Positions 5,138-10,394 of a stretch of DNA of 64,000 bases are shown here, one piece after another. Numbering within the stretch: the first letter of the stretch is position 1; each line of letters starts with the position of its first letter. A program made the translations under genes and the position numbers. The notes under the pieces were generated by a model. It did not search any database. It had not been told where the DNA came from and worked only from the letters and a program-made list of their open reading frames with translations. The stretch comes from an uncultured Clostridia bacterium (lineage in GTDB: Bacteria; Bacillota; Clostridia; Oscillospirales; Ruminococcaceae): positions 62,001 to 126,000 of the forward strand of contig CANRNN010000005.1 in assembly GCA_947632025.1 (NCBI GenBank). Direction: 5' to 3'.

Positions 5138-5225
5138 ACAAGTTTCTTGAATTATATACAAGATTCTTGAATATATTCAAGTTTCTTGTATCACATCGAG
5201 GAGAGTTCTTTTACAAGTTTCTTGA
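5138..5225. repeat. Short repeats with CAAGTTTCTTG core at the murD2 3' end
   Basis: The 13-mer ACAAGTTTCTTGA occurs at 5138-5150 and 5213-5225, with variants at 5158-5170 and 5177-5189. Three copies are intergenic at a 19-20 bp period. The fourth is the last codons of murD2 (FKKLV region, read on the minus strand). Each core has complementary CAAG/CTTG arms. Confidence 0.7.
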
Positions 5226-6507
5226 AGTGCCGACCGCGCTCCTCAAAGTTGCGGTAGAACCCGTAACTTGCCGAGGCAGGGGAGAGCAGCACCCTCTTTT
5301 TGGCGCATTTTGAAGCCGAATTTACGGCTTGCTCCATATCCTCGGCGAATATCTTGTTGACGACGGGATTCGTGACAAGCGCGGCAATGCGCTTTCCGCT
5401 GTCGGGCAGGAAAATGACGTTTTCGACCACACCGCGATTAAGAAATTCGCCGAGAATGTCGTAGGAAATTCCCCTGTCCATACCTCCGAGAATAAGGCAG
5501 TCCGTGCCGTCAAAGGCGTTCACGGCGGCGATAGCGGCTTCGGGAACGGTACAGATGCTGTCGTTGACGTACTCCACGCCGTTTATCACGGCGACGTGTT
5601 CGAGCCGATGTTCAAGACCCTTGAAGTCGGGCAGCGATTCAAGGCACACGTCCGTGTCCGCCCCCGCGAGTTTTGCGGCTGCCAGAGCCATTGCGATATT
5701 ATACAGATTGTGCTTTCCGCGCAGAGAGGTGTTGATCTTCGCCGAGGAGATCTCCTCACCGAACAGGAATATCGAATCTCCGTCCGTCCACACGTCGGCT
5801 TCTTTTCCGAACGCGGACGTGAAGAGCTTTCCGGACGTTTCCACGGGCATCAAGTCGCTGTTTGCGACCGTGAAGTCACATTCCCGCTGAAACCGCGCTA
5901 TATTGCGCTTTGCGGCGGCATATGCGCCGAAATCGACATAGTGGTCGAGGTGTTCGGGGAAGATGTTCAGCAGCAGCGAAATATCCGGCGAATGCCGCAC
6001 GAATTCAAGCTGATGACACGAAAGTTCCAGCACCGCCGTGACGCTTTTGTCCATCTCCTCAAGCCGCATCAGAGGCGGCACGCCGATGTTTCCGATAAGC
6101 ATTGACGGCACTCCGCAGGCTTCCAGAAAGTGACTTATCAGGGAAGAAGTGGTAGATTTTCCCTTGGTTCCCGTCACGCCGATAATTCTGCACGGTCTGA
6201 GCTTCAAAAGCAGCTCGGTCTGCGTCAGGATACGGCTTTTCGCCTGTTCACTAAGTTTGTTCTTTATAATTACTCCGGGAGATTGCAGAATAAGGTCGAA
6301 TCTCTCACATTCCGCGAGGTAATTTTCCCCCGAAATTGGCTTAACGGCGGGATTTTCGAGGTCAAGCGGATTCATGTCCGCAACGGCGATTTCGCGGCAG
6401 CAATCGAGCTTTGAAAGTAACTCCAGCCATACTTTTCCCTCTCTGCCGTATCCTAAAATAACTACACGTTTTCCGTCAAAGTGAGGTTTTAATTCATCAA
6501 TGTTCAT
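5191..6507 (-). CDS. murD2: UDP-MurNAc-L-alanine ligase, probable MurD2 type (L-glutamate adding)
   Basis: Mur ligase of 438 residues. N-terminal Rossmann domain (VVILGYGREGK at 15-25), ATP loop GTKGKST at 113-119, central 'NIFPEHLDHY', and a C-terminal domain with 'SPASASYGFYRNFEERG' (409-425). Canonical MurD has an NDSKATN motif whose Lys contacts D-Glu (K348 in E. coli). Here the motif is NDSICTVPEA (315-324), with Ile at the Lys position. With murL overlapping by 11 nt upstream, I infer that it adds L-Glu rather than D-Glu, as in the Xanthomonas MurD2-MurL pair. I chose ATG 6507 because residues N-terminal to it do not resemble Mur ligases and would lie inside murL. Confidence 0.8.
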   Translation of the reverse strand: MNIDELKPHFDGKRVVILGYGREGKVWLELLSKLDCCREIAVADMNPLDLENPAVKPISGENYLAECERFDLILQSPGVIIKNKLSEQAKSRILTQTELLLKLRPCRIIGVTGTKGKSTTSSLISHFLEACGVPSMLIGNIGVPPLMRLEEMDKSVTAVLELSCHQLEFVRHSPDISLLLNIFPEHLDHYVDFGAYAAAKRNIARFQRECDFTVANSDLMPVETSGKLFTSAFGKEADVWTDGDSIFLFGEEISSAKINTSLRGKHNLYNIAMALAAAKLAGADTDVCLESLPDFKGLEHRLEHVAVINGVEYVNDSICTVPEAAIAAVNAFDGTDCLILGGMDRGISYDILGEFLNRGVVENVIFLPDSGKRIAALVTNPVVNKIFAEDMEQAVNSASKCAKKRVLLSPASASYGFYRNFEERGRHFKKLVKELSSM

Positions 6508-7822
6508 ACACAATTTTCTCCAGAATGGGTATAAATTCCTTAGGAACAAAATTGTCCCCGTCAAAAAAATTCGTAAGGTCAACGGGCTTATACCCCTCAA
6601 ACCGCTCTCTGAAGCGCAAAAGCAGCGCGGGCGGGTCGTCCTTTCGCCTGTCGAGCGCCATTTTAAGCGACAAACGCACCTCGTCCTTTGTTCCGACGCA
6701 CTCAAACGGCTTATCCTCGCCGTCGTTCATCAGCCCGTCCAGCATCTCGGAGAGGTCGGCTCTTTCGAGCATATTGCACCCGAAAATTCCCGTCAGCACG
6801 CCGTCGTCCAGGAACGCCGCCAGCAAAATATACACATACAGGCATTTTGCGCAGTTACAGCACCACACGTTGGTTTTCGAGCCGAGATTACAGCTCTGAA
6901 AAACGTGATAATACTGCGGAAATCTGACAAATTCGCGCGCTATCTGCCACTCCGACAGCGGTCGCAGCAGGCTGAAATATTCGGGGCAGTTTCCGAAAGT
7001 TTTTGTGCAATATTCACGAAAATCACGCTCAAATTCCGTCGATTTGCTGTACTGGTGATTGACGTTCAGCCCCTCGACGTAGCTTTCGTTCGCGCTGCTT
7101 TCGTTGGATAAAGCAATGTACTTCACATTCAGCATAATTCCGCATAACAGCGCGGAAAACGCGACCACCGCCGAAAACGGCGTATGCCCGTTCAGCCACC
7201 CCGCCGTGTTTCTTTCGAGCAGCGTTTTATCTATGGTCCTTCGCGGACAAACGGCTTTTTCAAGCGGAATTCCCGCGGCTTTGACGCAGCCTTCCGTCGC
7301 ACCGCGCGCGTTTATGATGTAGGGCGTGATTTCGACGCCTGCGGCTTTCAGCAGCTCCAGCGTCACCACGCTGTCTTTTCCCCCGCCGACCGGCACCAGA
7401 GCGCCATTCAGCACGGGTCTTACTTCGGGTAACGGCGCGGGTTCGGGGGCGGTTATCGTCATAAAATCCTCGAATTTCGCGTCTATTTTGTTCCGGTAGA
7501 AGAACTCCCCCAAGCCGTTGAAATACAGTTTTTTCCACCAGTTTTTCTGCCATTCGGACAGTCCCCCGCACCTCACCTCGACCGTCGGGCAGCACGCGCA
7601 TTTCCAGTAGGAAACAAGCTCCGCCATTCCCAGTGAAAAAGCCGCGGTTTCAAGCTGCAAACGCGAGAAATTGCCGCTCATATAATCACGGTCAAATTCC
7701 CACTTCGGGTAGAAATGATATTCGTCTATCTGAAAATGGAAAGTTAAATATTTCTCGTTTATTTCATAACTGTGGTAGATAAAAATCGGGTGTTCTCTGC
7801 GTAATTCGTCAAAAGTACTCAT
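6497..7822 (-). CDS. murL: UDP-MurNAc-L-alanyl-L-glutamate epimerase MurL
   Basis: 441 residues. Known MurL (Xanthomonas oryzae) uses ATP to invert the terminal L-Glu of UDP-MurNAc-L-Ala-L-Glu to D-Glu. Family blocks recognised in order: FNGLGEFFYRN (101-111), P-loop-like VGGGKDS (145-151), LNGHTPFSAV (210-219), SNESS (239-243), VNHQYSK (254-260), YFSLLRPLSEWQIA (282-295), a Cys cluster WCCNCAKC (320-327), IFGCNMLE and KPFECVG. GGGKDS resembles the PP-loop of ATP pyrophosphatases. AAAGG lies eight bases before the ATG. It sits between tmcAL and murD2, and its coding end overlaps the murD2 start, suggesting coupled translation. Identification is from remembered motifs, not a search. Confidence 0.88.
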   Translation of the reverse strand: MSTFDELRREHPIFIYHSYEINEKYLTFHFQIDEYHFYPKWEFDRDYMSGNFSRLQLETAAFSLGMAELVSYWKCACCPTVEVRCGGLSEWQKNWWKKLYFNGLGEFFYRNKIDAKFEDFMTITAPEPAPLPEVRPVLNGALVPVGGGKDSVVTLELLKAAGVEITPYIINARGATEGCVKAAGIPLEKAVCPRRTIDKTLLERNTAGWLNGHTPFSAVVAFSALLCGIMLNVKYIALSNESSANESYVEGLNVNHQYSKSTEFERDFREYCTKTFGNCPEYFSLLRPLSEWQIAREFVRFPQYYHVFQSCNLGSKTNVWCCNCAKCLYVYILLAAFLDDGVLTGIFGCNMLERADLSEMLDGLMNDGEDKPFECVGTKDEVRLSLKMALDRRKDDPPALLLRFRERFEGYKPVDLTNFFDGDNFVPKEFIPILEKIVYEH

Positions 7823-7866: not shown

Positions 7867-9027
7867 TTATTCAAGAATGACGGGGCGAGCCGTGAAGTCG
7901 CTCCCGCACGGCAGCGCTTCCTCGAAAGCGAGCGCGTAAATATCCGACGCTTTTGCCGTGAATTTGGCTTGCCGAGCCGCTTCGCGGGAAATTCCCGAAA
8001 GCGCTTTCAGCGATGTGTCGATAGGTATTTTGCACTCTGACGCGGCGAGAATTTCCTTTCCTCTGGAGTTCATTCCCAGAACGCGTATATACGCGGGCTT
8101 TTCCAGCGCAAATTTCCTGTCGATCCCCAGAAATCCGCATAGTACAGCCCTTCTTATGCGGGCGAGGGTATAGCGTTTTGTCTTTGTGAGAAAATACACC
8201 TCTCCGAGGGAGCGACCCGCGCGGACGGCTTTATAGAGCCTGTCGCCCAGTCCACCCGCGCAGTCGTAGATTCCCGAAAATTCGTCCTTGGACATCGTGC
8301 GAAGCTTCGCGAGGATCGCCCTCTCCAGCCGCGAGATGTCCGCCGCGGGAGCGCCGCACGCGGGCGCGAACGCCGAATATTCCTCTCCCGAAAGTATCAT
8401 TTTCCTGACAGCAGAGCCGCTTGCGTATCCCGTACCGCTGTCGGCTTCGGAAGCGTCGTGAGCCGCTCCGCCGCGCTTTACCGTGAACATCTCGATATTG
8501 CTCCCTAAGTCGTCGAAAGCGCTTATATACTCCACGGCAAGGGTGTTGTTCGGGGAAGCGACAAGCTCCGCCACGTCGGGCGTGTAAAACTGCCTTAAAG
8601 CCGCGTCCAGAGCCGCAGGATAGCTTTTCCCGCGCCTCAGCTGCTCCGAGAATTCCTCGGACTTTACCGCGTATGCCGCAGCCCCCGCAGCCTCCCGCAG
8701 AGCCACTATATCGCCGCATTCGCTTCCGAACGCGAGCATATCCGCGCACCCAAGCGCGGTTATGATGTCCGCCGCGCCCCTTGCGAAGCCCTCCGCCGAG
8801 GTGAGGGAAACTCTTTCCGGAAGCTCCGCGACAAGGTCCGCGCCGTTTTCCAGAGCGATTTTTGCCCTTGTGAATTTGTCGAAAACAGCGACATCTCCGC
8901 GCTGCACGAAATTCCCGCTCATAACGGCGAGGATATGCGTCGCCCCCGCTTTCCTCGCGGCTTCAATAAGCGCTCTGTGACCGTTGTGGAACGGGTTGAA
9001 CTCGCAGATCATGGCGGCTGTTTTCAT
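7867..9027 (-). CDS. tmcAL: tRNA(Met) cytidine acetate ligase
   Basis: 386 residues. Belongs to the YlbM/DUF795 family, which makes ac4C34 in elongator tRNA-Met by activating acetate with ATP to acetyl-adenylate. The nucleotidyltransferase signature FNPFHNGH is at residues 10-17 and the MSGNFVQRGDVAVFDK block follows at 35-50. A GAGTTEGC... type 'GTGYASGSAVRKMI' segment is also present. AAGGGAG precedes the ATG. First gene of the minus-strand operon tmcAL-murL-murD2 (44-nt gap to murL) and divergent from ackA, whose substrate acetate it shares. Confidence 0.92.
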   Translation of the reverse strand: MKTAAMICEFNPFHNGHRALIEAARKAGATHILAVMSGNFVQRGDVAVFDKFTRAKIALENGADLVAELPERVSLTSAEGFARGAADIITALGCADMLAFGSECGDIVALREAAGAAAYAVKSEEFSEQLRRGKSYPAALDAALRQFYTPDVAELVASPNNTLAVEYISAFDDLGSNIEMFTVKRGGAAHDASEADSGTGYASGSAVRKMILSGEEYSAFAPACGAPAADISRLERAILAKLRTMSKDEFSGIYDCAGGLGDRLYKAVRAGRSLGEVYFLTKTKRYTLARIRRAVLCGFLGIDRKFALEKPAYIRVLGMNSRGKEILAASECKIPIDTSLKALSGISREAARQAKFTAKASDIYALAFEEALPCGSDFTARPVILE

Positions 9028-9074
9028 AATATGTACTCCCTTTGAATTTTAATTCCAAAATCAACTATAAATAT

Positions 9075-9103
9075 ATTTTACATCATTTTCTAAATAAATT
9101 CAA
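9075..9103 (-). promoter_or_regulatory. Promoter of tmcAL-murL-murD2
   Basis: On the minus strand: TTGAAT (plus 9098-9103), 17-bp spacer, TAAAAT (plus 9075-9080), about 48 bp upstream of the tmcAL start. No other promoter or terminator is evident before murD2, so the three genes are probably one operon. Confidence 0.6.
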
Positions 9104-9122
9104 TAAAATTTTCAAAAAATAC

Positions 9123-9149
9123 TTGAAATTTTTTGTGAAATGTTATAAA
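9123..9149 (+). promoter_or_regulatory. Possible ackA promoter
   Basis: TTGAAA at 9123-9128 and an extended -10 TGTTATAAA ending at 9149. The spacer is only 15 bp, so the extended -10 probably does most of the work. It lies back to back with the tmcAL promoter, 20 bp away. Confidence 0.5.
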
Positions 9150-9188
9150 ATAAAATTGTAATTTTTATTTGAAAGGAATTTTTTTGTT

Positions 9189-10394
9189 ATGAAAATTTTG
9201 GTTATCAACGCGGGCAGCTCTTCTCTGAAATATCAGCTCCTCGATATGGACGACGAGAGCGTTATCGCAAAGGGCAACTGCGACCGTATCGGCATAGGCG
9301 GACATATCAAGCATACCGCCGCCGACGGCAGGACTATCGACGTAGACTGCGATTTCCCGACGCATACCGAGGCTTTCGAGAAGCTTGTGGAAGTGCTTAC
9401 CACGGGTGAAGCTGCCGTTATCAAGTCCATGGACGAGATAAACGCCGTAGGTCACAGAATAGTACAGGGCGCGGAGATCTTCAACAAGACCACCCTCGCG
9501 ACCGACGAGGTGATTCAGCAGATCGACGACCTCGCGGAGCTGGCTCCCGTACACAATCACCCGCACGCTCTGGCGCTCAGAGCCTGCAAGAAGGTCATTC
9601 CCGCGACCACCCCGCAGGTCGTCGTGTTCGACACCGCGTTCCACGCGACCATGCCCGAAAAGGCGTTTATGTTCGGTATGCCGTATGAGTGCTATGAAAA
9701 GTATCATGTGAGAAAATACGGCTTCCACGGCACTTCTCACAGATTCGTTTCTCAGGCGCTTGCCGACGCTATGGGCAAGGACATCAAGGACCTTAAGATA
9801 GTTTCCTGCCACCTCGGAAACGGCTCGTCTATCACGGCTGTAGAGGGCGGAAAGTCTATAGACACCTCTATGGGCTTCACCCCGCTGGACGGCGTTATTA
9901 TGGGAACGCGTTCGGGGTGTGTTGACGCTTCGGCGGTGACTTTCATTCAGAACAAGCTCGGTCTTTCTCCGTCAGAGATGAGCGACTACCTCAACAAGAA
10001 GTCGGGATTCCTCGGAATTTCGGGAGTGTCCAGCGACGCGCGCGACCTCGGCGCTGCTGCCGAAGAGGGCAACAAGAGAGCGAAACTGGCGCTTGAAATG
10101 CTCCGGTATGAGATCAAGAAGTATATCGGCTCGTATGCCGCGATTATGAACGGTCTGGACGCTGTTCTGTTCACGGGAGGTATCGGCGAGAATTCGGACG
10201 ACCTGCGCGAGGACGTCTGCTCGAATATGGAATATCTTGGAATCAAGATAGACAAGGCAGCCAACAAGGGGCTTCGCGGGAAGCTTGCGAAGATTTCCGC
10301 TCCCGACAGCAAGGTTGAGGTATGGGTCGTTCCCACCAACGAGGAGCTGCTTATCGCACGCGACACCAAAGCGCTTGTCGAGGGTAATCTCTAA
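9189..10394 (+). CDS. ackA: Acetate kinase
   Basis: Forms ATP and acetate from acetyl phosphate, the energy-yielding end of acetate fermentation. 401 residues, the usual length. The N-terminal phosphate-binding block NAGSSSLKYQ is at residues 6-15. Later family blocks are 'GHRIVQG', 'FDTAFH', 'FHGTSHR', 'CHLGNGSSI', 'MGTRSGCVD' and 'FTGGIGENS'. AAAGGAA precedes ATG 9189. pta is not adjacent; the neighbour is the divergent acetate-using tmcAL. Confidence 0.98.
   Translation: MKILVINAGSSSLKYQLLDMDDESVIAKGNCDRIGIGGHIKHTAADGRTIDVDCDFPTHTEAFEKLVEVLTTGEAAVIKSMDEINAVGHRIVQGAEIFNKTTLATDEVIQQIDDLAELAPVHNHPHALALRACKKVIPATTPQVVVFDTAFHATMPEKAFMFGMPYECYEKYHVRKYGFHGTSHRFVSQALADAMGKDIKDLKIVSCHLGNGSSITAVEGGKSIDTSMGFTPLDGVIMGTRSGCVDASAVTFIQNKLGLSPSEMSDYLNKKSGFLGISGVSSDARDLGAAAEEGNKRAKLALEMLRYEIKKYIGSYAAIMNGLDAVLFTGGIGENSDDLREDVCSNMEYLGIKIDKAANKGLRGKLAKISAPDSKVEVWVVPTNEELLIARDTKALVEGNL

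Follow-up and report, generated by a model that had tools for sequence, protein, structure and literature searches.

The closest described system to the locus examined here is the MurD2-MurL pair of Xanthomonas oryzae (XOO_1320 and XOO_1319; PMC8788868, PMC5808125), for which we used the X. sacchari pair (L169) as our point of comparison. On the basis of the published Xanthomonas work, MurD2 would join L-Glu to UDP-MurNAc-L-Ala, and MurL would then turn the bound L-Glu into D-Glu on the precursor. The authors of that work hypothesize that a second ATP yields an α-carboxyl adenylate, such that the α proton would be loosened before hydrolysis and AMP released; MurL is indeed described as an AMP-releasing enzyme without known domains (PMC8788868; PMC5808125). 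The preference of X. oryzae MurD2 for L-Glu is ascribed to Glu197 and Arg358 (D182 and K348 in the E. coli enzyme), and the reverse double change makes it a D-Glu enzyme (PMC8788868). According to the same review, X. oryzae has neither MurI nor D-amino-acid transaminase. In the accessible text of these two sources, the route is known from Gammaproteobacteria (Xanthomonas and its kin), from a few Alphaproteobacteria and from rare actinobacteria; relatives of low similarity are given for cyanobacteria, one fungus and one amoeba (PMC8788868, PMC5808125). Judged by titles and the openings of abstracts, none of the papers listed by our searches of open-access literature reports the route in Clostridia or Bacteroidetes.

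We consider it highly probable, from sequence, that two overlapping minus-strand genes at 6497-7822 and 5191-6507 of the window (the whole 64,000-nucleotide stretch of a Clostridia genome analyzed here) constitute a MurD2-MurL pathway that supplies D-Glu for the stem peptide of peptidoglycan. The pair extends a known system by a new and divergent member, and its open reading frames, profile matches and overlap lie far beyond what chance would produce.

The first gene, murL (6497..7822, minus strand), is a 441-residue open reading frame, which the preliminary description had assigned to MurL from an ordered set of motifs and a Cys cluster. That assignment holds: the motifs lie at residues 146-151 (GGGKDS), 239-243 (SNESS), 254-260 (VNHQYSK) and 284-291 (SLLRPLSE), the cluster comprises C311, C321, C324 and C327, and a profile search matches residues 62-406, most of the protein, to NF041275 (241.5 bits, E 1.2e-71). 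NF041275 is the NCBIfam equivalog model of MurL, named for Xanthomonadales, and its cut-off is 700 bits; the window protein misses this value, and X. sacchari MurL scores 836.5. The name of the NCBI equivalog is thus barred to the window protein, while the family resemblance stands, so that the possibility raised earlier, that a profile search might place this gene outside MurL, is not what we found. No genome in any of our samples reaches the cut-off: 0/150 for the window's own genome and its relatives, 0/348 for a draw across its phylum, and 0/295 for a Bacteroidetes order. No Pfam family matched the window protein at E 0.01.

The motif residues singled out in the preliminary description are mostly invariant in alignments of 12 and of 50 MurLs. 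GGGKDS, predicted to be a PP-loop-like ATP-binding motif and encoded at 7370..7387 (minus strand), is invariant in 50/50. When X. sacchari MurL and a relative from Pseudonocardia are added to the 50 (52 rows), C311, C321, C324, C327 and also C375 are the same in every row; GGG.DS, NE.SA and NHQ.SK are each kept in at least 50 rows. The window and Xanthomonas proteins have GGGKDS, SNE.SA, NHQ.SK, SLLRPLSE and C..C..C in common, and both carry the four cluster cysteines and C375. Their identity is approximately 31% over 406 aligned positions, which makes the window protein a distant branch of the MurL family.

The second gene, murD2 (5191..6507, minus strand; 438 residues), scores 305 bits with the MurD model TIGR01087, which exceeds the cut-off. 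Its frame is open as far as a TTG at 6705 (504 residues), but the part conserved in homologues begins with the ATG at 6507; a GGAG motif lies 10 nt before this codon. Since the murL stop codon ends at 6497 and murD2 starts at 6507, the two genes overlap by exactly 11 nt (ATGAACATTGA; 6497..6507, minus strand), as had been described. The X. sacchari genes have the same arrangement, murL then murD2 with overlapping ends, and there the overlap is 20 nt. The surroundings differ from those in Xanthomonas: the window pair lies beside a nucleotidyltransferase gene and ackA. The former (7867..9027, minus strand) is directly upstream of murL on the same strand, with a gap of 44 nt; it matches NF010191 at 298.2 bits, below the cut-off of 360, and we take it to be of the tmcAL/ylbM type. 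It is likely a passenger of the murL operon, and a homologue is found at 12 of the 80 MurL loci that we named (80 kept of at least 574 relatives), all of them among the loci nearest to the window MurL. In close kin, both this gene and the divergent ackA (window positions 7867-10394) stay beside murL; ackA is adjacent at 8 of the same 80 loci.

A key question for the assignment is which enantiomer of Glu the ligase would accept. We aligned 92 MurDs that are adjacent to or fused with MurL, the window and X. sacchari proteins included, with 30 MurDs from MurL-less relatives. These 30 are the best-scoring matches and not a random draw; 26 are from genomes with MurI over its cut-off, and the other 4 come from genomes that lack both MurL and a MurI of that score. 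All belong to the MurD ligase family. In E. coli numbering, the window MurD has Glu at D182 and Arg at K348, i.e., both of the residues associated with L-Glu preference, as does Xanthomonas MurD2. Position 348 is Arg in 92/92 MurL-linked MurDs and Lys in 30/30 of the others, and position 182 is Glu in 88/92 (Asp in 4), versus Asn in 27, Asp in 2 and Glu in 1 of the comparison set. At position 416 (Leu in E. coli), 91/92 MurL-linked proteins have Tyr and 30/30 others have Phe. Position 414 (Ala in E. coli) is Ala in 88/92 of the MurL-linked and 26/30 of the other MurDs. The Xanthomonas enzyme departs from the window MurD2 at both of these last positions, with Pro at 414 and Phe at 416 in place of Ala and Tyr; the frequency of Ala at 414 indicates that the Pro of X. 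oryzae MurD2 is not common to MurL-linked MurDs. We also considered K319, the site at which Thr (K319T or K330T) lets MurD accept L-Glu, and dropped it as a specificity marker: it is Ile in 91/92 MurL-linked and 29/30 other MurDs.

Phylogenetic analysis leads to the same division. A single branch separates MurL-linked from other MurDs, both in a quick maximum-likelihood tree (64 rows, unrooted; SH-aLRT 96) and in a more careful one (39 rows, unrooted; bootstrap 100, SH-aLRT 98). The MurD2 side includes the window and X. sacchari proteins, whereas E. coli MurD falls on the opposite side; the branches of X. sacchari and E. coli are very long. In these unrooted trees X. sacchari MurD2 sits between the MurD2s of Clostridia and Bacteroidetes and the other MurDs, and the single row most identical to it belongs to those other MurDs (L060, 33%). 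Taken together, the residues and the trees support the assignment of the window MurD to the MurD2 type, with a predicted preference for L-Glu.

We then asked what other sources of D-Glu are encoded in the window's genome (2.36 Mb in 31 contigs, rated 100% complete), for which the preliminary description had proposed searches for murI, a D-amino-acid transaminase and a second murD. No glutamate racemase was found with TIGR00067 at E 0.001. One protein exceeds the cut-off of PF01063 (Aminotran_4), the branched-chain aminotransferase ilvE_II (416 bits), and a second match to this family is sub-threshold (14.1 bits); no D-amino-acid transaminase was found, its model giving a 43-bit partial match against a cut-off of 277. 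One MurD is over the cut-off. Three further proteins match the MurD model: two on contig C12 are murE and murF, and the third, on C7 (128.7 bits), is probably murC. In the genome's own dcw cluster (L070; contig C12, 14655-16991), ftsW/spoVE comes immediately after mraY, and murD is missing from the interval. We considered this gap as a scar of replacement and rejected it: 0/30 of the MurD loci in MurL-less relatives have mraY or ftsW in the scanned flanks (up to 1.5 kb).

Another line of evidence comes from the genomes of relatives: where we searched for both, MurL and above-cut-off MurI are mutually exclusive. Among 150 genomes (the window's own and its relatives), 49 have MurL, 91 have MurI over the cut-off, none has both and 10 have neither. 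Counted by genus, the figures are 8, 76, 0 and 9 (Fisher p 2.4e-7); the genome-level p value of 6e-30 is inflated by kinship. Within the window's genus, MurL is present in 42/43 genomes, the exception (G019) being 73% complete. MurI over the cut-off is likewise found in 0/50 of the genomes that hold 50 of the 80 named loci (kept of at least 574), a set that shares at least one genome with the 150 (L119 is a contig of G104). Sub-cut-off matches to the racemase family occur in 6 of the 49 MurL genomes (22-45 bits) and in 9 of the 50 (21-40 bits). Two genomes with neither MurL nor MurI over the cut-off (G079, G088) contain MurI fragments. Three others of this kind (G045, G099 and G149; L197, L198 and L199) instead have near full-length matches to the D-amino-acid transaminase model (208.8-232.5 bits, below its cut-off of 277), and this enzyme is probably a third D-Glu route in the same order.

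The preliminary description had proposed that the pair replaces glutamate racemase and a D-Glu-specific MurD, and that this lineage makes its stem-peptide D-Glu on the nucleotide precursor. The specificity residues, the lack of the usual D-Glu genes and the exclusion of MurI all favor both proposals: MurL and MurD2 would stand in for the two conventional enzymes in this genome. The comparison MurDs offer the converse case, with Lys at 348, mostly Asn or Asp at 182, and MurI over the cut-off in 26/30 source genomes, in contrast to the window's genome.

The physical association of the two genes is widespread. At 63 of the 80 named loci (kept of at least 574), MurD adjoins MurL downstream on the same strand; at 5 the two are fused, and at 12 there is no MurD in the stretch, some of these stretches stopping at contig ends. 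We searched the genomes of these 12 loci and one more (G126) for MurD: 12/13 have a MurD with the Glu and Arg pair, and G505 has a fragment alone. Two different MurL genes (L132:4971-6203, plus strand; L179:2792-4132, minus strand) occur in one genome (G520; contig title, Bacteroidales UBA1208), one solitary and the other beside a MurD of the MurD2 type. A MurL relative on a Pseudonocardia alni plasmid (L170:3764-5164, plus strand), annotated as a hypothetical protein, has no MurD among the genes of its 9-kb stretch. In three further genomes (G545, G528 and G515; L186, L188 and L189), 186-residue open reading frames resemble the C-terminal domain of MurD alone (approximately residues 266-440); longer frames that resemble Mur ligases are found at a distance of a few kb.

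In total, nine distinct open reading frames are natural MurL-MurD2 fusions, with MurL first in one frame of 840-949 codons. Five come from the 80 named loci (kept of at least 574): L098, L119 (the contig of L073) and L144, which by contig title belong to kin of Clostridia, and L145 and L158, which are titled Bacteroidales. The other four (L209-L212) come from four long frames of our MurL search in a Bacteroidetes order. The EHLD and [DE]R motifs are present in 9/9. On a 43-row MurD2 tree, the five fusions from the named loci need 4 changes. Over 40 loci, distances between MurLs correlate with those between MurD2s (r 0.86; 0/2000 permutations as high), a correlation much of which shared ancestry alone could explain. 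The fusions, together with the overlap of the unfused genes, support the idea that MurL and MurD2 act jointly and in proximity.

How widely is this pair distributed? Our scan of genome contigs returned at least 574 MurL relatives, of which 80 loci were kept. The depositors' titles of the kept contigs include Oscillospiraceae, Lachnospiraceae, Ruminococcus, Mordavella massiliensis, Erysipelotrichaceae and many Bacteroidales; the MurLs closest to the window's among these kept matches are on contigs titled uncultured Clostridia or Oscillospiraceae bacterium. In the order of G522 (a Bacteroidetes-titled genome; the draw also includes the Bacteroidales-titled G535), MurL was matched in 98/295 genomes, in one case by a fragment of 23 bits. 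An even draw across the window's phylum gave MurL in 1/348 genomes, this being the window's genome itself, and MurI over the cut-off in 305/348. Comparison of 98/295 with 1/348 shows the route to be patchy. It is rare across the phylum as a whole, which tempers any reading of it as common in gut Clostridia. The Xanthomonas route is present here in divergent form, and is wider than the taxa named in the accessible text of PMC8788868 and PMC5808125; this breadth, and the fused forms, are the part that a specialist would not expect.

Sequence comparison also offers a suggestion as to how MurL handles ATP. TtuA is a PP-loop enzyme, and when a profile built from 50 MurLs was searched against known structures, TtuA constructs (n=2) were the only matches, at E 0.001 and over profile positions 140-179, the region of GGGKDS; the match is weak and confined to approximately 40 residues. 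A single-sequence search of the PDB with the window MurL gave nothing meaningful. Among the 50 MurLs, weak Pfam matches are chiefly to DUF6395 (49/50), with QueC and tRNA_Me_trans HUP domains matched by one member each. The best DUF6395 match has an E value of 0.00018, and that of the window protein (E 0.023) covers residues 303-336, at the Cys cluster; these matches hint at a distant family relation. We infer that GGGKDS may be a PP-loop motif and that MurL may have a PP-loop fold, a reading of our own. The PP-loop ATP pyrophosphatases (TtuA and, more weakly, QueC and tRNA_Me_trans HUP) share a GGxDS-type motif with MurL, and AMP would be the product released by adenylate chemistry; the release of AMP by MurL would fit an adenylation site of the PP-loop kind. 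The PP-loop-like motif suggests how MurL, in which no known domain has been described, may use ATP.

Bearing in mind that the window MurL falls below the NCBI equivalog cut-off, one might suppose that the adjacent MurD is an ordinary D-Glu ligase, that the MurL relative acts on some other glutamyl compound, and that D-Glu is taken from the medium or made by an unrecognized racemase. MurL relatives without an adjacent MurD, such as that on the Pseudonocardia plasmid and those at 12 of the 80 named loci (kept of at least 574), would be compatible with this explanation, as would a racemase of a family other than TIGR00067 and PF01063, which our searches covered, for example a broad PLP racemase. 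Against it are the Arg at K348 and Glu at D182 of the window MurD, its position on the X. sacchari MurD2 side of the tree, the absence of MurI over the cut-off from the 49 and the 50 MurL genomes, and the natural fusions of MurL with MurD2; we consider this explanation very improbable. We give even less credence to a second alternative, in which MurL and MurD2 are a redundant second route and D-Glu comes mainly from a D-amino-acid transaminase. The matches in G045, G099 and G149 make it probable that such a route exists in the order, but in the window's genome the sole aminotransferase of this fold over the cut-off is ilvE_II, and the match to the transaminase model is partial, at 43 bits. We regard the pair as very probably functional as a MurL-MurD2 route, and it is the sole D-Glu route that our TIGR00067, PF01063 and transaminase-model searches found in this genome.

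A broader reading is, in our estimation, evenly balanced between being right and wrong: that inversion on the nucleotide precursor commonly supplies D-Glu in certain gut Clostridia and Bacteroidetes, where it has replaced MurI and MurD wholesale several times; that in several lineages a single bifunctional MurL-MurD2 protein delivers the L-Glu intermediate straight to the epimerase; and that MurL is a new use, as an epimerase, of the PP-loop ATP pyrophosphatase fold. The natural fusions are a ready system in which to ask if the unusual intermediate with L-Glu goes straight from one activity to the other. There are also implications for the promotion of this route as a narrow-spectrum drug target against pathogens (PMC8788868). 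Should the route be in use in one third of the genomes sampled from a Bacteroidetes order and in almost all of a Clostridia genus, inhibitors of it would hit those bacteria too, and inhibitors of glutamate racemase would miss those Bacteroidetes and Clostridia.
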